Source: Sphingopyxis sp. 2PD
Lineage (GTDB): Bacteria > Pseudomonadota > Alphaproteobacteria > Sphingomonadales > Sphingomonadaceae
DNA: 64,000 nt
NCBI RefSeq assembly: GCF_005503695.1
Contig: NZ_SCMU01000013.1
Location: 1-64,000, forward strand
Direction of reading: 5' to 3'
Part shown: piece after piece, positions 42,159 to 51,193 of the stretch
How positions within the stretch are numbered: the first letter of the stretch is position 1
Layout of the letters: each line of letters opens with the position of its first letter
Translations under genes and position numbers: made by a program
Notes under the pieces: model-generated
The model's database searches: none
Seen by the model: the letters and a program-made list of their open reading frames with translations, nothing else
Told to the model about the DNA's origin: nothing

Positions 42159-44252
42159 CTAAAACGTCCCGCGCGCCGAGAAGGAGAAGATCGGGCCGAT
42201 CAGCCGGTCGCGTTCTTCGACAAAGGCGATCGGACTCGCACCGCGCACCCCCGTGTAAACGGAGCGATCGCGCTTCGACCTGGCGTTGGCGATGTTGCGG
42301 ACCTGCGCGCGCACGGTCAGCCCCATCACATTCTTGTGCTCGACAAAGACCGTCGCCCACACCGGCCCTTCCCAGATCTTGTCGCTCTGGTTGCGCCGGT
42401 AACTCGGCTGGTTGTGCGTATATTCGGCGTCAGCGCCCCATGCCCAATCGGTACCCGCGACATCGTGCCGAACACCGACATAGGCGACCGTATCGGTGAA
42501 GCCGTTCCACTGGCGCTTTTCGCCGGTAAAGGGATCGCGGAGCGACGATTTCTGGAGCAGCAGCCGCGTGTCGAGCTTGACCCCCTTCAGCCCCGCAGGG
42601 TCGAGGTTGATCGTCGCAGTCCAGTCGATCGCGCCTGCCTTTGCCTTGGCGATATTGCCGACCGCCTCACCGTTCGCACCGACCGGCACGACATCGACGC
42701 GGTCCTCGACATCGCGATAAATCAGGATCAGCTTGGTCGATCCCCACGCGCCGAACTTCTTGTTGATCTCGGCCTCATAGGTCCAGTCCTGCTGCGGGCG
42801 CAGGTCGTTGTTGCTTTCATTCTGGTTGCCGTCGTTCAGGAACGCGCGCGCCAGAAAATCATAGAAGGACAGTTGCAGCACCCGGCGACGCAGTTTCGCC
42901 GACACGTCGAAATCGGACGACGGCGTCCATGCCAGCGAGATCGAGCCCTTGGGGCGGAAAAAGCTGCGCGTCAGCCCGTTCATTCCGGTCTGGGTGATCG
43001 TCGAATGTTCGGCGCCGCCGATAATCTGGAAATTGAGCGTATCGGTCAGCTTGCGACCGAAGCTCAGCAAGCCTTCGTAGCGATCTTCCTTCACCCCGCC
43101 AGTGCCGCCGACAAACGGTTGTTCGATAAACACTCCGTTCGCATCGAGCACCGCGATCGACGCAACATTGTCGAGCTTGTTGAACGCTGCCTCGCCCGAC
43201 AATTGCCAGTCGCCGCCCAGCATCTTCCACTGATATTCGCCGCGTCCGATCGTTTCGCCGATGTCGCCGGTCTGCGCAAAGCGATCGCCCGTGGCGGCGC
43301 CGCCGATGGGGGTGGTGACGATCTCCTGCACATAAGGTTCGTGACTGAAGCGGCGCAGCCCGATCAGCTTCAGCCTGCCCGGCCCCACCCCGAACTGATA
43401 ATCGCCGTTGACCTCGTAATTCCAGGCATCGTCGGTCTGGCGGACGATACGCTCGCGGTCGGGTTGGCCCGGCGACACGCGGACGCCATCCTCGTCATAG
43501 CGGTCATATTCGCGCTGATAATGTCCGCCGATGTTCACCACCGTGTCACCCGCCGGATCCCAGGTCAGCCGCCCCGACAGCTTCGGCGCATCGAAATGGG
43601 TGTTCCAGACGTCATGGCGCCGTTCGGTGACCTGCCCCGCGCCGTCGGTAATAATCGTCGGCCCGCCGGCGCCGCTGCGCCGGGCGCTGTCATTGCTGAG
43701 CGCAACCTCATATTCGACCGTTCCGCTGCGCCCGCGAACCGACACGTCGGCGCGGGTAAACAGCGGGTCGGTATGATGCGCCCGAAATTCGGGTTTCCAG
43801 GAAAACTGCCCCGAAAAACTGTCGGCGCGATAGACGATATTGGCGACCTGCCCCGAAAGGCCGGGAATATCCAGCGTCGCGCCATCGACAATCTCGATCC
43901 GTTCGACATTTCCCGCCGGGATGCGCGACAGCTGGGTGTACATATCATCACCCTTGTTCGATGGCCGCTCGCCGTTGAACAGCACATTGCCCGTCGCCTG
44001 CCCCAGCCCGCGCAGATTTTCATTGTCGCGGATCGAAAAGCCGGGAACCTGGTTCAGCATGTCATAGGCGTTTGTCGGTGCGTAACGGGCGAAATCGGCG
44101 GCGGTGAAGACCTGCCGCGCGCTGCCGTCCGCGCCCGTCGCCGCCGTCGCTGCTGCAGCGGGCGGCGGCGCTTCGCCGGTCGCCGCGGTTTCCTGCGCCA
44201 GCACCGGCGATGCGATCGCGGCGGACAATGCGCAAAGGCTGATCAGCCGCAT
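42159..44252 (-). CDS. TonB-dependent receptor of the BlaI-controlled operon
   Basis: A 697-residue outer-membrane receptor. The signal peptide ends at SPVLAQ (about 19). The plug has TNAYDMLNQVPGFSIRDNEN, NVLFNGERPSNKGDD and RIEIVDGATLDIPGLSGQVA. The barrel ends in FSFSARGTF. It belongs to the type with a PGF-type plug and no clear TonB box at the start of the mature form, close to outer-membrane receptors that handle peptides or polysaccharides. The ATG at 44252 shares its A with the stop of the repeat-protein gene (TGATG). It is the last gene of the operon. Ligand unknown. Confidence 0.86.
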   Translation of the reverse strand: MRLISLCALSAAIASPVLAQETAATGEAPPPAAAATAATGADGSARQVFTAADFARYAPTNAYDMLNQVPGFSIRDNENLRGLGQATGNVLFNGERPSNKGDDMYTQLSRIPAGNVERIEIVDGATLDIPGLSGQVANIVYRADSFSGQFSWKPEFRAHHTDPLFTRADVSVRGRSGTVEYEVALSNDSARRSGAGGPTIITDGAGQVTERRHDVWNTHFDAPKLSGRLTWDPAGDTVVNIGGHYQREYDRYDEDGVRVSPGQPDRERIVRQTDDAWNYEVNGDYQFGVGPGRLKLIGLRRFSHEPYVQEIVTTPIGGAATGDRFAQTGDIGETIGRGEYQWKMLGGDWQLSGEAAFNKLDNVASIAVLDANGVFIEQPFVGGTGGVKEDRYEGLLSFGRKLTDTLNFQIIGGAEHSTITQTGMNGLTRSFFRPKGSISLAWTPSSDFDVSAKLRRRVLQLSFYDFLARAFLNDGNQNESNNDLRPQQDWTYEAEINKKFGAWGSTKLILIYRDVEDRVDVVPVGANGEAVGNIAKAKAGAIDWTATINLDPAGLKGVKLDTRLLLQKSSLRDPFTGEKRQWNGFTDTVAYVGVRHDVAGTDWAWGADAEYTHNQPSYRRNQSDKIWEGPVWATVFVEHKNVMGLTVRAQVRNIANARSKRDRSVYTGVRGASPIAFVEERDRLIGPIFSFSARGTF

Positions 44253-44983
44253 CACTTGACCCCCTGCGTCGCGCGGTTCATCGCCACGGCATATTCGCCG
44301 GTGACCCCCATCGCCTTCATCCCCACGACATCATGGGCGCTCAGCTTGCGATACCCCGCCGCGGCCAGCCCGCGCACATAGGCGCCGTCAACCCCCAGCG
44401 CCTTGCACGCGATCGCATCGTCGACGTCGGTCAGCACCAATGCTTCGGATTTCAGGTCGCGAAGATAGGCAGGGGTGACCTCCAGCGCTGCTGCGGCGAT
44501 CAGCTCGTCGGCGTCTTTCGGCTTCGCTCCGGCATCGGTCAGCCCATCGGCCAGCGCGATCGTCGCGTCGACCATCAGCATCGACAGCATGTCGCTGCGC
44601 CGCTCGGGCACCAGCGCGCGCGACGCCAGCGCCGCCTCGAACGCGGGGTCAGAGGTAAAGCGGCAACGCCCCGTCCCTTCAAACGCGCGCGTCAGCGTGC
44701 CGGTACAGGCGAGCGTTCCCGCCTCATGTTCCACCGTAAAGGCCACCGGTCCCGCCGCGCCCTGCAGCGCATCGCGGGCGGGCGCCAAGGCGGCGCGCGC
44801 GCTGCCCAGCGACAGATCGCTGCTCGACCGCCCGTGGCTCACCCGCAAATGCGGCTGGCCTTTTCCGGGCTGCGCTTTCCATTCGATGTCGGTCATCACC
44901 AGCGGGTCGGCGGCATTGCTCGGCGCGGCGCAGGCGATGACGGTCATCAGCGCGGCGGTTGCGGCGATCATGGGGGTTTTCAT
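44252..44983 (-). CDS. Exported protein with 28-residue helical repeats
   Basis: A 243-residue protein. A signal peptide ends around APSNAADP. The N-terminal domain (about 27-145) is beta-rich with two cysteines, C93 and C107 (TLACTGTL, GRCRF), that may pair. From about 156 to 240 there are three copies of a ~28-residue repeat (core D-x-D-E-L-I-x4-A-L-x-V and GVDGAYV), the same repeat as in the outer domain of BlaR1 encoded upstream. It is likely periplasmic and may bind BlaR1 or the same ligand. No family is recognised for the N-terminal domain. Confidence 0.78.
   Translation of the reverse strand: MKTPMIAATAALMTVIACAAPSNAADPLVMTDIEWKAQPGKGQPHLRVSHGRSSSDLSLGSARAALAPARDALQGAAGPVAFTVEHEAGTLACTGTLTRAFEGTGRCRFTSDPAFEAALASRALVPERRSDMLSMLMVDATIALADGLTDAGAKPKDADELIAAAALEVTPAYLRDLKSEALVLTDVDDAIACKALGVDGAYVRGLAAAGYRKLSAHDVVGMKAMGVTGEYAVAMNRATQGVK
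44264..44518 (-). repeat. Three coding 28-residue repeats (repeat-protein gene)
   Basis: Three tandem units, at residues about 156-183, 186-213 and 214-240. Each has the pattern D-(x)-D-(E/D)-(L/A/V)-(I/V), then A-L-(G/E)-V and a Tyr two or three residues later, as in BlaR1's C-terminus. Confidence 0.75.
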
Positions 44984-45094
44984 GGCAGCACTCCTCTTGC
45001 CGACGCTGGACGAGCGTCATCGCTCGCCCCCGCAGCGGCGTTTCAAAACAAGGCTTCGATCAACGATATTCAGGCTTGGACGAATGTCCGGGCG

Positions 45095-46816
45095 TCAGCT
45101 GGTTGGCGGCGCCGGTGGTTCGGGGGGTGCGGACGGTTCGGCCATTTCGATCCGCGCGACCCGGCCATCGCTGCTGCGCGCTTCCATCGTCATCCCGTCC
45201 GCGCTCATGCGGACCGTGGGGCCGCTTGCCGACCGCGCCACCGCCGACTTCGACCTGACGGTCGGTCGGGCTTTCGACGTCGCACGCAATTCGATCGCGT
45301 CGTCGGCGCTGCGCATCCGCACCCCGGCCTTCCGCATGTCGGTGACGAAGTCGCAATCGACCCCCATCGCGCGCAGCGCGATCACATCGTCGATACCGAT
45401 GTCGGGGAAATGCGATTTCATGTCGCGGGCAAAGGCGGGTTCGATGTGCAACGCCGAGGCGCCGATCAATTCGTCGACGTCCACGTTCGGAAAGATGTGG
45501 CGCATCTGCCGGATATAGGCGGGATCGACGCCGCTTGCGCGCGCCGAGATCAGCTCGTCCACATCCATCGACGCCCCCTCGGCGCGCATCTCGGCGGCAT
45601 ATTCGGCGGTGACCCCGACGGCGCGCAGGTTGATCAGCTGCTCGGCGCTCAGCTTCTCGGTCGATGCGGTCGCGGCGGCCTGATCCTCGGCATCGCCTTT
45701 CGCTGCTCCGGCAACGCGCGCCGACGCGATCGCCGATTTCCGTTCGGCTAGCGCCGCGGTCCGGTTATCCTTTGCGGCGATCTTTTCTTCGGCTGCGGTC
45801 GCCGAAAAGGCGGCCAGCGGCGCGGTTACGCCGGCCAGCACGACCAGGCTCATCAACACCCAGCTCGCGCTTGCCGGCCCGCGCTTCAGACTGGCGTCGA
45901 GCACGCGGGTGATCCGGCGTTTCAGGCTGCTCTTCGACGGCGCGACGCCATGCGCCGCCATCAGCGCCGCCTTATTGTCATGCCGCGCCGCGCCGACCAG
46001 CAGCGTCGCATAGTCGGGACCGTCGATGTCGGCCATCAGCACCGCGTCGTCGGCCGCCTCTTCGCGCAGCTGATGGCTCTCGCGCGCCAGCATCCAGACC
46101 AGGGGATTGAACCAGAAAATCGCGCAGGCGATGCGCGAGGCAAGCAGCTTGGCCCAGTCGAGCCGCGCGATGTGCGCCAGCTCGTGCGCGATGATCGCCT
46201 CTGCCTCGCCGACCGCCTGCGCCGCCTTCGGGCTCAGCACGATCGTCGACCGCAGCAGTCCCCAGCTGATCGGCGAGCGCAGTTCGTCGCTGACCAGCAA
46301 CGCTGTGCCATGTTTGAAGCCCATCCGCCGCTGCGCCTCGGCGAGCGCCGACAGCCACGACCCGTCGACCAGAATTTCGGCGCGTCCGCGCATCGCGAAC
46401 AGCCGCACCACCGCCAGCAACATCACTCCAAACAGCAGCGCGAGCGGGACAAGGTAGAGAAAGGGCGCAAGGTCGGCCCCCACCGACCAGCTGATCGGCG
46501 GCGATCCGGCGGTATCCGCCACGACCGGGACGGATGTCGTCGCGGCCACCGGATCGACCGCCGATCCCCCCGTCGCGTTGCTCGAAACGGCTCGGGGTGC
46601 TGCCTCGGCGACCCAGCTCGCGGGCAGCGGCTGCCATATCGGCAGCGCCAGCGAGGCGGCCGGCAGCACCAGCAGCGCCAGCAGGCCGACATGCGCGACC
46701 AGCGACCGCTCGCCCGCCGAACGCGTCCGCGCCAGCCGCAGCAACGCCAGCGTCAGCCCGGCGATCAGCACCGACTTCCAGGCGAGCCCGATCAACATCG
46801 AAGCGGTGATCATCAT
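45095..46816 (-). CDS. blaR1: BlaR1/M56-family membrane protease with a repeat outer domain
   Basis: A 573-residue inner-membrane protein. Membrane spans lie at about 8-27, 38-60, 117-140 and 318-338. The cytoplasmic M56 zinc protease has HELAH at 211-215 and the third ligand in REEAADDAV at about 251-258. In classical BlaR1 the C-terminal outer domain is a penicillin-binding sensor. Here residues 341-573 lack any S-x2-K/SDN/KTG set and instead carry four 28-residue repeats (389-500) followed by a Pro-rich tail. The family logic is signal reception outside, then cleavage of BlaI. The start overlaps the blaI stop (ATGA). Ligand unknown. Confidence 0.88.
   Translation of the reverse strand: MMITASMLIGLAWKSVLIAGLTLALLRLARTRSAGERSLVAHVGLLALLVLPAASLALPIWQPLPASWVAEAAPRAVSSNATGGSAVDPVAATTSVPVVADTAGSPPISWSVGADLAPFLYLVPLALLFGVMLLAVVRLFAMRGRAEILVDGSWLSALAEAQRRMGFKHGTALLVSDELRSPISWGLLRSTIVLSPKAAQAVGEAEAIIAHELAHIARLDWAKLLASRIACAIFWFNPLVWMLARESHQLREEAADDAVLMADIDGPDYATLLVGAARHDNKAALMAAHGVAPSKSSLKRRITRVLDASLKRGPASASWVLMSLVVLAGVTAPLAAFSATAAEEKIAAKDNRTAALAERKSAIASARVAGAAKGDAEDQAAATASTEKLSAEQLINLRAVGVTAEYAAEMRAEGASMDVDELISARASGVDPAYIRQMRHIFPNVDVDELIGASALHIEPAFARDMKSHFPDIGIDDVIALRAMGVDCDFVTDMRKAGVRMRSADDAIELRATSKARPTVRSKSAVARSASGPTVRMSADGMTMEARSSDGRVARIEMAEPSAPPEPPAPPTS
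45317..45652 (-). repeat. Four coding 28-residue repeats in the BlaR1 outer domain
   Basis: Residues 389-416, 417-444, 445-472 and 473-500 align without gaps. Constant features are (D/S)-x-(D/E)-(E/Q/D)-(L/V)-I at 2-7, then A at 11, V or I at 14 and (Y/F) at 18. A fifth, shortened copy (SADDAIELRA) follows at about 503-512. Two helices per unit are predicted. Confidence 0.85.
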
Positions 46817-47190
46817 TTCGCTCTCCCTTCGCGCGCCTGCCCGATCAGCTTTTCCAGCTCGTCGAGCTCATCCGCGCTCATTTCCTCCTGCATCCCCAGC
46901 AAGGCCGCGGCGGCGCTGGTCGCCGATCCGTTGAAAAACACCCGCACCACCTGGCTCAGCGCCGATTTGCGCGCGGTCTTGTCCGATACGCTCGGCGCAT
47001 AGACAAAGCCGTTGTCCGACGCTTCGCGCGCCACAAACCCCTTCGCCTCCAGCCGCTTCAGCATCGCGCGGATCGCCGAGCCCGACAGTTCGTCGCTCAA
47101 TGCCTCGCCGATCTCGGTCACGGTCGACGCGCCGCGCTCGTACAGAATATCGACAATTTCGCGTTCCCGCGGCGGCAAACTGGACAACAT
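46813..47190 (-). CDS. blaI: BlaI/MecI-family transcriptional repressor
   Basis: A 125-residue winged-helix repressor: LPPREREIVDILYERGASTV, then GSAIRAMLKRLEAKGFV and the SQVVRVFFNGSATSAAAALL dimerisation end. It is cleaved by its BlaR1-type partner to release the operator. An ATG at 47190 with GAGGTGAG just upstream on its strand is preferred over a GTG at 47199. Its own operators lie 17-46 bases upstream of the start, so it represses its own four-gene operon. Confidence 0.9.
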   Translation of the reverse strand: MLSSLPPREREIVDILYERGASTVTEIGEALSDELSGSAIRAMLKRLEAKGFVAREASDNGFVYAPSVSDKTARKSALSQVVRVFFNGSATSAAAALLGMQEEMSADELDELEKLIGQAREGRAK

Positions 47191-47206
47191 GCGACTCACC
47201 TCATGC

Positions 47207-47220
47207 GCTACATTTGTAGC
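47207..47220. promoter_or_regulatory. BlaI operator, proximal site
   Basis: GCTACA-TT-TGTAGC contains TACA-N2-TGTA, the core recognised by BlaI/MecI repressors. Site arms are perfect. Confidence 0.85.
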
Positions 47221-47222
47221 GT

Positions 47223-47236
47223 GCTACATTTGTAGC
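47223..47236. promoter_or_regulatory. BlaI operator, distal site
   Basis: An exact second copy of the 14-base site, 16 bases centre to centre from the first. Two such sites side by side fit binding of two repressor dimers, one and a half helical turns apart. Confidence 0.85.
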
Positions 47237-47650: not shown

Positions 47651-50600
47651 ATGACCGACCGACGCCATCGCTTGTTTGCGCTGCTCCTCGCCGCCCCCAT
47701 GTGGACCGCCGCGCCCGCCGCCTTTACGCAGGACACGGCCCCCGCCAGCGCCGCCGCCCCCGAGGCCAAGCCGCTCGACGCCGATCAGCAAAAGATGCTC
47801 GACCTGATCAACCGCGGCATGGAACTTGAACGGGCAGGCAAGCTTGGCGAGGCGGGCGACGTCTATCGGCGCTGGATCGACGAAGCGACGAAACGCTATG
47901 GCGCCGACAATTTGATTACCAGCCTTGGTTATCGCGCGCTGGCATTCAACCTCGAGGAACAAAACCAGCTGAAGGATGCCGAAGCCAATTGGCGCCGCCT
48001 CCTCGCGATCAATAGCCGATACCTTGGGGCGCAGGACGATCAGACGCTCACCGCCACCGGCTTCCTCGCCACCAACCTCGCCAAACAGGGTCGCCCGGCC
48101 GAGGCGCTGCCACTCCGCCGCGACCTGCTCGCCGCGCGCACCGCGCAATTTGGCCAGCAGCATGCAACGACGATAGCGGCGACCGGCAATCTCGCCGGAC
48201 TGCTGGTCGAGCTGGGCGACATGCGCGGCGCGGAGAAATTGTTCCGTCAGGCACTTGCCGCCAATCTGGCGCTCCACGGCGAACAGCACCGCGAAACCGC
48301 GTCGCAATACGCCAATCTGGCGGTCACGTTGCGCAGTCTGGGGCAGTTCGAAGAAGCCGCGACGATGCTCGACAAGGCGCTGGCGATCGACGAGGCGATG
48401 ACCGGCCCGAACGGCCCCGACGTCGCGCTGCATCACTATAACCGCGCGGTGAACTTTACCGAACTCGGGCGTTATGCCGACGCCGAAACCGCCGCGAACC
48501 GCGCGCTCGCGATCTGGCGCGCGACCAAGGGCGACGACAGCGTTCAGGCGGCGCTCGGCTATACCGTGCTCGGCTATAGCTACGGGCTGACCGGCCGCTT
48601 TGGCGAAGCCGAAACCGCCTATCGCAAGGCGCTGGACAACCGCACCCGGCTGCTCGGCGCGGCGCACCCGCTCACCGCCGAGGCGACGAACAACCTTGCG
48701 CTCAACATGGAAAATCGCGGCTTGCCGCCCACCGCCATCGAACCCTTGCTGCGCCAGGCACTCGACAGCACGCGCCGCGCCTATGGCGACAACAGCGAGC
48801 GCACCGCGACGATGTACGCCAATGTTGCGCATAACCTGAACCGGCAGGGCCGCTATGCCGAGGCCGAACCGATGTATCGGCGCGCGCTGGACATTCAGGG
48901 CGGCATCGCGGGCCGCGACCATCCCTCCTACGCCGCGACCCAGATCAATCTTGCCTATAATTTGCGCGACGGCGGCGACGCGGCACGCGCCGAACCGCTG
49001 ATGCGCGAGGCGCTCGCCGTCTATCGCGCGAAGTTCGGTGAGGATAATCCCGAAACCGCCTGGGCCTATCTCAGTCTCGGGACGACGCTCGGCGGGCTCG
49101 GGCGCCATGCCGAGGAGGCCGAGATGACCGGCAAGGCGCTCGCCATCCGTCGCCGCCTGCTGGGCGAAGATCACCCGCTGACCGCCGTCGCCTACAACAA
49201 TGTCGGCGCGGCGCTGGTCCGCGGCGACCGCAGCGGCCCCGGCGACCGCGCCGCCGAACCCTATTATCGCCAATCGCTCGACATCCTGCGCCGTAACCTT
49301 GGCGAGACGCATATCGATACGGCACGCGCCTATGAAAATCTGGCGCTGACCCTGCTGCGCCAGGGCAAGGCCGCCGAGGCCGAGCCGCTGGCCGCCAAGG
49401 CGGTCGCGATCCTGCGCCGCCTGAACGAACAAAGCGCCGCGGGCAGCGGCGCGGTCGGGCTCGCGGCGCTCGACCGGCAGCAGGCCGCCCCCGACCGCGG
49501 TATTTTCACCACCTATCTGAACACCGCGTTCGGACTGATGGAGGCCACCCCCGACGCCGCGCAGCAGGCGGAGATTCAGGACCGTGCCTTTCGCGCCGCG
49601 CAGGATGCGATTGCGTCCGCTTCGGGCCGCGCGGTGCTGCAAACCGCAGCGCGCAGCGCCGCCAAGACGCCGCAAATGGCCGAAGCGGTACGCCAGGAAC
49701 AGGATCTTGCCGCCAAGGCGAACCTCATCGACAAAAATCTCCTCCGCGCTCTCGGCGGGCGCAAACCGGTCGAGGCGGCACGGCTGCGCGGCGAACTCGA
49801 CACGGTACAGGCTGAGCTGGCCAAGGTGAGCGCGCTGATCGACAGCAAATATCCATCCTATCGCCAGCTCGTCGCGCCGCGCCCGATCAGCCTGGCCGAA
49901 GCGCGGCAGGCGCTGAAGCCGGGCGAAGCGCTGCTGCTCATGACCGAAGCGGCGAACGCGCTGCACCTGTTCGTCGTCACCCCGACATCGGTCGGGTGGA
50001 GCCGTCCGGGCAAAGAGGTCGCGGTTGTCCTGAAACAGATTTCCGATCTACGCTGCGACGTCGATTTCGCCACCTGTTCGGCGGCGCGCAAGGCCGAGCT
50101 CGACGCGCTGCCGATGTCGGCGCTCGAACTCGAAGGCCATCGCCGCTTCGATCTCGACACCGCCAACGCGCTCTACAAACTGTTGATCGAACCGGTCGAG
50201 CCGCTGCTGAGGGACAGCCAGCGCATCTATGTCGCCAGCTCGGGCAAGCTTGGCGACCTGCCGCTGGCGATGCTGTCGGCGACCGCGCGGCCCGCGGGCG
50301 CCGACATCGCCGATCCCGACACGCTGGCGCGCGCCGCGTGGCTGTCCGACCGTTTCGCCTTCACCAGCTTGCCTGCCGTCGCCGCGCTGACCTTGACCCG
50401 CGATCCGCCGCGCGATCGCCGCCGCAACAGTTTCCGCGGTTACGGCGCCCCGGTGCTGGTCGGCGGCGACACCGGATCGCGCGCCGCGCGCGGCATCGCG
50501 GTATTCGACGCCGTGTCGCCATCGGGCGCGCCGCTCGCCGACCCCGACGTACTACGCCGCCTCGCGCCGTTGCCCGGGACCAAGGTCGAGCTGGCGGCAA

Positions 50601-51193
50601 TGGCACGTTTGTTCGGCGTCGCGCCGGGCAGCCTGACGATCGACGGCAAGGCGACCGAGACGGCGCTGCGCCAGGACCCCGCGCTCGCGACCAGCGAAAT
50701 CGTCGCGATTGCCACCCACGGGCTGCTCCCCGACCCGTCGATCGGCTTCAGCGAGCCGGGGCTGGTGCTGACCCCGCCACCCACGGCCAGCGACATCGAC
50801 GACGGGCTGCTCACCGCGACCGAAGCGGCGCGCTTGACCCTGTCAGCCGACTGGGTGATCCTGTCGGCGTGCAACACCGCGTCGGCGGAAAATTCGGGCG
50901 GCGGCGACAGCCTGTCGGCGCTCGCGCGCGGTTTTCTCTACGCCGGGGCCGACGCGCTGCTCGCCAGCCACTGGCGCGTGTCGGACGATGCGACCGCGGT
51001 GCTCACCGTCGAAACGCTGCTGGCGCGGCGCAACAACCCGGCGCTGTCGCGCGCGCAAGCGCTGCAACAGGGCATGGCCGCGGTGCGCAGCGGCAAGCGC
51101 GCCGACGGCAGCGCGATCGCGGGCTGGAAAGCCGAATGGGCGCACCCCGCCGCCTGGGCGGCCTTCACCAACATCGCCAACCGCGACGATTGA
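47651..51193 (+). CDS. Exported TPR-CHAT domain protein (caspase-like protease fold)
   Basis: An 1180-residue protein. The signal peptide is about 26 residues (RRHRLFALLLAAPMWTAAPA). Residues 45-600 are tandem TPR units of about 42 residues (kinesin-light-chain type). A helical linker follows to about 860. The C-terminal CHAT domain runs about 870-1175, with His1023 in ATHGLL and Cys1074 in LSACNTA as the caspase-like dyad. LARGFLYAGADALLASHWRV is the usual end. It is probably a periplasmic or surface protease whose TPR part selects a partner. The partner or substrate gene is not evident nearby. Confidence 0.9.
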   Translation: MTDRRHRLFALLLAAPMWTAAPAAFTQDTAPASAAAPEAKPLDADQQKMLDLINRGMELERAGKLGEAGDVYRRWIDEATKRYGADNLITSLGYRALAFNLEEQNQLKDAEANWRRLLAINSRYLGAQDDQTLTATGFLATNLAKQGRPAEALPLRRDLLAARTAQFGQQHATTIAATGNLAGLLVELGDMRGAEKLFRQALAANLALHGEQHRETASQYANLAVTLRSLGQFEEAATMLDKALAIDEAMTGPNGPDVALHHYNRAVNFTELGRYADAETAANRALAIWRATKGDDSVQAALGYTVLGYSYGLTGRFGEAETAYRKALDNRTRLLGAAHPLTAEATNNLALNMENRGLPPTAIEPLLRQALDSTRRAYGDNSERTATMYANVAHNLNRQGRYAEAEPMYRRALDIQGGIAGRDHPSYAATQINLAYNLRDGGDAARAEPLMREALAVYRAKFGEDNPETAWAYLSLGTTLGGLGRHAEEAEMTGKALAIRRRLLGEDHPLTAVAYNNVGAALVRGDRSGPGDRAAEPYYRQSLDILRRNLGETHIDTARAYENLALTLLRQGKAAEAEPLAAKAVAILRRLNEQSAAGSGAVGLAALDRQQAAPDRGIFTTYLNTAFGLMEATPDAAQQAEIQDRAFRAAQDAIASASGRAVLQTAARSAAKTPQMAEAVRQEQDLAAKANLIDKNLLRALGGRKPVEAARLRGELDTVQAELAKVSALIDSKYPSYRQLVAPRPISLAEARQALKPGEALLLMTEAANALHLFVVTPTSVGWSRPGKEVAVVLKQISDLRCDVDFATCSAARKAELDALPMSALELEGHRRFDLDTANALYKLLIEPVEPLLRDSQRIYVASSGKLGDLPLAMLSATARPAGADIADPDTLARAAWLSDRFAFTSLPAVAALTLTRDPPRDRRRNSFRGYGAPVLVGGDTGSRAARGIAVFDAVSPSGAPLADPDVLRRLAPLPGTKVELAAMARLFGVAPGSLTIDGKATETALRQDPALATSEIVAIATHGLLPDPSIGFSEPGLVLTPPPTASDIDDGLLTATEAARLTLSADWVILSACNTASAENSGGGDSLSALARGFLYAGADALLASHWRVSDDATAVLTVETLLARRNNPALSRAQALQQGMAAVRSGKRADGSAIAGWKAEWAHPAAWAAFTNIANRDD

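Follow-up and report, generated by a model that had tools for sequence, protein, structure and literature searches.

A BlaR1-type M56 protease with a repeat-bearing outer part and an exported partner of the same repeat type in Sphingopyxis

BlaR1 and MecR1, the textbook examples of M56 receptors, are known to sense beta-lactams; cell-surface signalling is typified by FecA/FecR/FecI. Here, a BlaI–M56 locus was analysed in a stretch of 64,000 nucleotides from Sphingopyxis sp. 2PD (NZ_SCMU01000013.1, positions 1 to 64,000; the whole stretch is called the window), in which four genes follow one another 5′ to 3′ on the minus strand in the order blaI, M56, an exported partner and a gene of the TonB-dependent-receptor type. 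A preliminary description of this DNA had presented the M56 protein as a BlaR1-like protease with a 28-residue repeat domain for a sensor, shared with the exported neighbour. We consider the chances slightly better than even that the locus encodes a BlaR1/BlaI-style proteolytic switch with a two-chain periplasmic sensor, controlling its own operon including the TonB-dependent receptor.

As far as the portions of PMC9834060 and PMC7593790 drawn upon describe them, BlaR1/BlaI and MecR1/MecI of S. aureus resemble this locus in having a four-span M56 protease with an HExxH motif, a BlaI-type repressor and operators of the TACANNTGTA kind. BlaR1 likewise has a C-terminal outer domain after the last span and a loop between spans 2 and 3, EL1, which in S. 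aureus lies in the sensor active site and which the beta-lactam is proposed to displace (PMC9834060, in part). The window differs from these accounts in that a string of repeats and a separate exported beta-domain partner are found instead of a penicillin-binding domain, and in that the operon output is a TonB-dependent receptor and not beta-lactamase or PBP2a. CopY/CopR, in the part of PMC7253601 used here, have the same repressor family, operator core and paired operators, and TACANNTGTA is there given as the CopY core and attributed to BlaI/MecI as well; unlike CopY/CopR, the repressor here is without cysteine and a membrane protease is encoded alongside. Cell-surface signalling, as outlined in the section of PMC7593790 consulted, is similar in that a TonB-dependent receptor is encoded with a transmembrane signalling protein, and periplasmic contacts are plausible, whereas in this operon there is no sigma or anti-sigma gene and no detected receptor signalling domain, the regulator being BlaI/M56 instead.

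The M56 and BlaI families are already known, and the sensor is without a match in Pfam or in the solved structures searched. In the open-licence literature (subscription papers lay outside the coverage), no description of the repeat, the beta-domain or the operon was found, and the part of PMC10470040 consulted merely tabulates BlaI and M56 genes of Porphyromonas.

The M56 protein and its exported partner

The M56 protein (573 amino acids; 45095–46816, minus strand, as are all features of the four genes given below) was assigned to its family by PF05569 (99.9 bits, cutoff 31), by an HExxH motif with a downstream glutamate and by four hydrophobic spans (about residues 5–29, 36–64, 110–145 and 313–342) with, judged from the charge pattern, a cytoplasmic protease domain. 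The zinc motif HELAH, placed by alignments at residues 211–215 (46172–46186), was invariant at H211, E212, L213, A214 and H215 in 28 aligned rows of same-genus homologues, which bears out the four-span HELAH protease of the preliminary description. H211–H215 together with E252 were invariant in 27 aligned rows, and E252 is probably the third zinc ligand, as read from the alignment to BlaR1. The predicted activity would be cleavage of BlaI. A Foldseek search with the M56 model gave six matches at E ≤ 0.001, all of them S. aureus BlaR1 chains, and two of these (8exr_A and 8exr_B) comprise the transmembrane and protease part only. Among 36 homologues, the mean identity to the window protein was 0.89 in the third transmembrane span and protease, 0.66 in the repeats, 0.39 in the tail and 0.29 in the linker. 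The sequence PLAAFSAT at the end of the last membrane span (residues 318–342, 45791–45865) was nearly invariant in the alignment; speculatively, it could be a signal-peptidase site by analogy with the one releasing the BlaR1 sensor in the account, seen in part, of PMC9834060.

In residues 385–505, self-comparison of the M56 protein peaked at an offset of 28. Four units, delimited by self-comparison and model, follow without gaps at residues 389–416 (45569–45652), 417–444 (45485–45568), 445–472 (45401–45484) and 473–500 (45317–45400), and a short fifth unit at residues 501–513 (45278–45316) was evident from the alignment and from a helix at 504–513 in the model. The summed unit-to-unit BLOSUM62 score of 257 was reached by none of 20,000 shuffles of the same residues, and the four gap-free units with a short fifth, as previously described, were thereby upheld. 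The repeat was found in all 28 full-length same-genus M56 homologues aligned. The mean predicted local distance difference test score (pLDDT) of the M56 model was 65.7, and the repeat stretch, made of helix pairs, reached 73–90 per ten-residue block.

Neither the repeats nor the partner beta-domain had a match in Pfam, where the partner gave nothing at E ≤ 1 and the M56 protein was matched in its protease region only, and the best match of repeat profile A2 in the PDB had an E value of 0.37. A match of profile A5, built from Bacteroidota chains as described below, to PDB chain 8v2d_J (O43_129 component A; E 0.0026) was taken as chance. Among long relatives in Bacteroidota, a small number of unrelated Pfam models clear their cutoff by summing weak repeated stretches, none of which does so singly. 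Similar repeats may also occur in Acidobacteriota.

A penicillin-binding sensor, which the preliminary description had denied, was rejected on the basis of Pfam, the model of the outer part, Foldseek and a check of motifs. The Pfam scan of the M56 protein showed no penicillin-binding or beta-lactamase match at E ≤ 1, and the model supports helical hairpins and not a penicillin-binding fold for the outer part. The earlier statement that S-x2-K, SDN and KTG are missing was right for the last two, as [SY]xN and [KH][TS]G do not occur past residue 340 of the window protein, and wrong for the first, since one SxxK is present (STEK, residues 385–388) in a poorly conserved linker, where STEK occurs in 2 of 37 aligned rows. 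Of 36 homologues, 17 have scattered SxxK sequences past residue 330 and one has the three motif types at once, so motif counting is weak and the evidence from the fold is better. Among the adjacent genes, neither those of the operon nor the divergent one encode a beta-lactamase or a penicillin-binding protein.

The partner (243 amino acids; 44252–44983; from open reading frame, alignment and model) was modelled with a mean pLDDT of 88.6 as a six-strand beta-domain followed by units that are each a pair of short helices. The beta-domain covers about residues 26–125 (44609–44908; hhalign and model), and repeat scoring together with the model placed the units at residues 156–183 (44435–44518), 185–212 (44348–44431) and 214–241 (44261–44344). 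Against the four M56 units they scored 169, 166 and 129, the best of 500 shuffles being 84, so the three units of the same type formerly attributed to this exported neighbour stood, although at a spacing of 29 and not the 28 of M56. An extra unit was present in four of the 28 partners in alignment A4 (L023, L024, L025 and L029). Among the 1160 listed Foldseek matches of the partner model none had E ≤ 0.001, the best being 0.047. Of 38 partners, 29 show a loose lipobox pattern within their 30 N-terminal residues. The protein may on this account be a lipoprotein, although its cysteine varies between sequences.

Fused and split forms in Bacteroidota and covariation among the four proteins

Repeat-bearing M56 chains of Bacteroidota (L086–L089, L188–L199) share with the window the BlaI gene, M56, beta-domain, repeats and short last unit. 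They differ in being usually fused and in having more units, and a TonB-dependent receptor gene beside them, for which no systematic search was made, did not emerge as a regular feature. Profile A5, built from four of these chains (L086–L089), matched 44 of 296 Bacteroidota genomes. The chains are ordered as M56, beta-domain, repeats, linker, more repeats and short last unit. The beta-domain comes straight after the final membrane span, which in BlaR1 is the place of the sensor; the fused chains thus have a counterpart of the partner beta-domain in the sensor position. The beta-domains of partner and fused chain were aligned by hhalign with a probability of 95.5 (E 1.4e-8, 22% identity over 91 columns; both alignments shallow). 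Positions 49–207 of A5 matched the window partner (E 2.4e-22) and positions 207–369 the M56 repeats (E 6.5e-21), as if the two window proteins were, by sequence, two halves of one Bacteroidota chain. For seven Bacteroidota chains with two blocks, the second block gave the better score with the M56-type repeat profile in six, and the first block with the partner-type profile, also in six. That both are fused as one chain in another phylum suggests that partner and M56 form one sensor.

Twelve Bacteroidota regions comprised seven fused forms, two split forms, two repeat-bearing M56 genes alone and one repeat protein without M56. In the split pairs (L188 and L189), an M56 with repeats is followed by a separate beta-domain-repeat protein, and the M56 of L188 has a weak beta-domain match as well. 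BlaI was upstream in all 11 of the regions with M56, and PF05569 was confirmed in all five of the M56 chains scanned. In L190 (754–6411), a fused M56-repeat gene was followed by two further beta-domain-repeat genes in a row. The listing of 29 Bacteroidota loci further included 18 (L111–L128) with proteins of 227–316 amino acids containing diverged repeat copies, without M56; by eye, many of these show a hydrophobic span at the N-terminus and are encoded next to a response-regulator-like gene.

Covariation among the four proteins was compared over 34 loci after shared tree signal had been removed by rank regression; L084 (3685–5445, Sphingopyxis sp. PET50) was left out because its M56 frame matches residues 1–314 only, and that gene may be disrupted. 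The partner beta-domain covaried most with the periplasmic M56 loop between spans 2 and 3 (residues 61–115, 46472–46636, placed by topology and matching BlaR1 EL1 in position), with a value of 0.50 that was the highest among 28 segments of the other three proteins, followed by M56 residues 116–165 (0.46). Conversely, the best three of 30 segments for the loop were partner residues 26–75, 76–125 and 126–155 (0.48, 0.42 and 0.40). The pair was again the highest of 21 with other controls (0.50), and ranged from 0.23 to 0.72 under taxon leave-out (20 of 34, 30 draws). None of 231 null pairs was ≥ 0.48, these being partly built from control proteins and biased low. The partner repeats covaried most with M56 residues 317–340 (0.40) and then with units 3–4 (0.36), while units 1–2 (389–444) gave 0.01 with the partner repeats and −0.23 with the beta-domain. 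As a sign of contact between partner and M56 this exploratory result is kept as a hint, because short and fast-evolving stretches were compared post hoc. The pairing of partner beta-domain and M56 loop would parallel that of sensor and EL1 in BlaR1, a suggestive analogy.

Repressor, operators, receptor and distribution

The preliminary description was incomplete: it had overlooked blaI and the tandem operators, the receptor gene that overlaps the partner gene, and the partner beta-domain. The repressor gene (46813–47199) belongs to the BlaI/MecI/CopY family (PF03965, 82.6 bits, cutoff 22.6) and its product resembles MecI structures (E about 1e-5). The protein contains no cysteine and hence no C-terminal CxC metal motif, and its score for TIGR02698 (CopY) was below the cutoff (38.9 against 121.95 bits). 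The frame opens with GTG at 47199; translation may instead begin at the ATG at 47190, which follows GAGGTGA. At blaI's own promoter the TACANNTGTA operator is present as two predicted copies: tandem palindromes, GCTACAAATGTAGC (47207–47236, minus strand), with 12-base cores at 47208–47219 and 47224–47235, 2 bp apart, are presumed to be BlaI operators. With at most one mismatch, CTACANNTGTAG matched in the window only at these two sites 5′ of blaI, where 0.13 matches were expected. Two operator copies were found in all 36 of the Sphingopyxis-type named loci that contain the stretch (39 such loci in all), and they stayed aligned in all 21 upstream regions compared (34 available), in which the sequence further upstream was unalignable. 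A second BlaI–M56 pair of the same genome (L002, contig C49, 138–2218) encodes an M56 protein of 564 amino acids with a different, repeat-free C-terminus, and the 12-base operator recurs there about 18 bp in front of blaI.

Both outer junctions are 4-base overlaps, of the blaI stop with the M56 start (ATGA) and of the partner stop with the receptor start (GTGA), and the gap between M56 and partner is 111 bp. The four genes would form one transcript, with the receptor as the last gene of the presumed operon. The receptor-type gene (698 amino acids; 42159–44255) has a plug domain (PF07715, 41.7 bits, cutoff 23.9), and the Pfam scan showed no other match to it at E ≤ 1, an N-terminal signalling domain included. 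Divergent from the operon lies a gene for a TPR-CHAT protein of 1180 amino acids (window 47651–51193, plus strand); the genes 5′ of the operon vary among the other loci listed, and this protein is therefore probably outside the system.

In 35 other same-genus genomes, M56 and partner were both present in 28, both absent in seven, two of which are less than 90% complete, and never found singly. A named collection of 46 loci, which overlaps with this genome set and is not an independent sample, consisted of 39 Sphingopyxis-type loci, three from other sphingomonads and four from Bacteroidota. The four-gene order was present in 36 of the 39, the remaining three being interrupted by contig ends. 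The receptor gene of L070 is truncated at a contig end. The nearest named relative in the scan was Sphingopyxis microcysteis Z10-6 (L046), with identities of 97.0% for M56 and 100% for BlaI.

The partner profile matched 21 of 298 Sphingomonadaceae genomes, four of the own genus included, in 11 of 96 genera, and 19 regions from other genera of the family were scanned for blaI, M56, partner and receptor. BlaI, a repeat-bearing M56, partner and the same receptor type were all found in five (L163–L166 and L171). L167 had partner and receptor and was interrupted by a contig end, and L170 had BlaI, M56 and partner, with a contig end too close to judge the receptor. The operator was present in nine of the 11 regions having both blaI and M56. 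Six regions of one genus (g302; L172–L177) have a partner-like gene without M56, four of them flanked, by eye, by an aspartate-semialdehyde-dehydrogenase-like gene. In an even draw of 398 Pseudomonadota genomes, three matched either profile, all Sphingomonadaceae, in a loose first look that may miss diverged repeats. In plasmid records, one match to query P0001 was limited to the protease region and five to the L089 chain to the protease part; the L085 partner had no match in the plasmid and phage collections, and the L106 partner had one weak match in Rhizobium (21.7% identity) and no phage match.

Proposed switch and competing explanations

In the switch that we favour, a BlaI-like dimer on the tandem operators would repress blaI, M56, partner and receptor. 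The M56 protein would have its zinc-protease domain in the cytoplasm and its string of repeats projecting into the periplasm, where the repeats would hold partner and M56 together and the beta-domain would touch the EL1-like loop, much as BlaR1's penicillin-binding domain contacts EL1. The partner–M56 complex might be shifted by a ligand or by some alteration of the outer-membrane receptor; the protease would then cleave BlaI, the operon would be derepressed and more receptor would be made. BlaI binding and cleavage, the two-chain contact and the direction of signalling are all steps that we infer. For the link between receptor protease and partner, as proposed before, there is now co-occurrence, fusion in Bacteroidota and the covariation hint, the contact itself remaining a deduction from these.

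Several observations weigh against this switch. The covariation between the repeats of the two proteins (0.36) was no higher than between repeats and receptor (0.37 and 0.42, with other controls). Both repeat profiles match both blocks of the Bacteroidota chains; in a close relative (G029), A5 matched M56 at 120–193 and 293–352 with no clean split, and in G456 a match of the partner lay in the second block as well (244–344). Across the own genome, the 12-base operator occurs at four sites, namely the two described, one at the second BlaI–M56 pair and one elsewhere, which is no commoner than a backward-read control, so only its placement is meaningful. L168 has BlaI, M56 and partner without the receptor. 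Four of the 19 Sphingomonadaceae regions have BlaI and a repeat-bearing M56 without the partner (L178–L181), of which L180 has the receptor and L181 (a Sandaracinobacter record, the same one as L090) is followed by a different TonB-dependent receptor, and in seven a partner-like protein is encoded without an M56 gene in the vicinity (L169 and L172–L177); neither protein, therefore, always needs the other.

These unpaired genes, together with the 18 Bacteroidota loci having repeat proteins and no M56, are what would be expected if the repeats were a general periplasmic binding module, with M56 and partner binding one and the same ligand, for instance a component of the cell wall or outer membrane, without touching, and with the partner as a scavenger or buffer. 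We regard this as unlikely, though it deserves attention, in view of the single chains in which M56 is fused to the beta-domain and to both blocks of repeats, the perfect co-occurrence within the genus and the covariation of beta-domain and loop. Alternatively, the partner might be an output of the operon that assists the receptor, perhaps in the periplasm or at the outer membrane, its repeats having arisen by duplication of the receptor's domain, while M56 alone senses. The overlap of its gene with that of the receptor, set against the distance from M56, would fit this explanation, as would the lipobox, by which the partner may sit at the outer membrane, and the finding that its repeats covary no less with the receptor barrel (0.42) than with those of M56 (0.36). 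We hold it to be improbable, given that the beta-domain of the fused chains takes the BlaR1 sensor position after the last span and that in at least four of the 19 regions M56-type genes or the partner are paired although the set is incomplete. It is very improbable that the outer part is a degenerate or true beta-lactam receptor still binding penicillins: the resemblance of the M56 core and BlaI to BlaR1/BlaI and the one SxxK in the linker are outweighed by the modelled helical hairpins and the empty Pfam scan, by the lack of conservation of that SxxK and of any SxN or KTG in the window protein, by a blaR1_generic (NCBIfam) score of 71.4 bits against a cutoff of 400, and by the other operon genes, which encode a partner and a TonB-dependent receptor.

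The preliminary description had further suggested that this may be a new class of signal-transducing protease. The repeat is not confined to this operon, as M56 proteins with it occur across Bacteroidota and in several Sphingomonadaceae genera, and the system is better regarded as a variant of M56/BlaI signalling, widespread and apparently undescribed. More tentatively than for the switch itself, we suggest that it may constitute a separate and widespread non-beta-lactam branch of BlaR1-type receptors, with a sensor of a beta-domain and hairpin repeats of about 28–29 residues, in one chain in many Bacteroidota and in two in sphingomonads and some Bacteroidota. In the two-chain form, the repeats may serve to dock a detachable sensor at the EL1 loop and so link events in the periplasm or at the outer membrane to cleavage of BlaI and expression of the receptor.

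If this is true, an unrelated sensor would have been fitted to the same protease–repressor switch in two phyla, the sphingomonad form being tied to an outer-membrane receptor. The sensor would then be approachable as two soluble parts, from a bacterium that is harmless, and the comparison of one-chain and two-chain forms would make it possible to test how an event outside is relayed to the protease inside, the EL1 question of BlaR1. It would also call for caution in annotating such genes as regulators of beta-lactam resistance.

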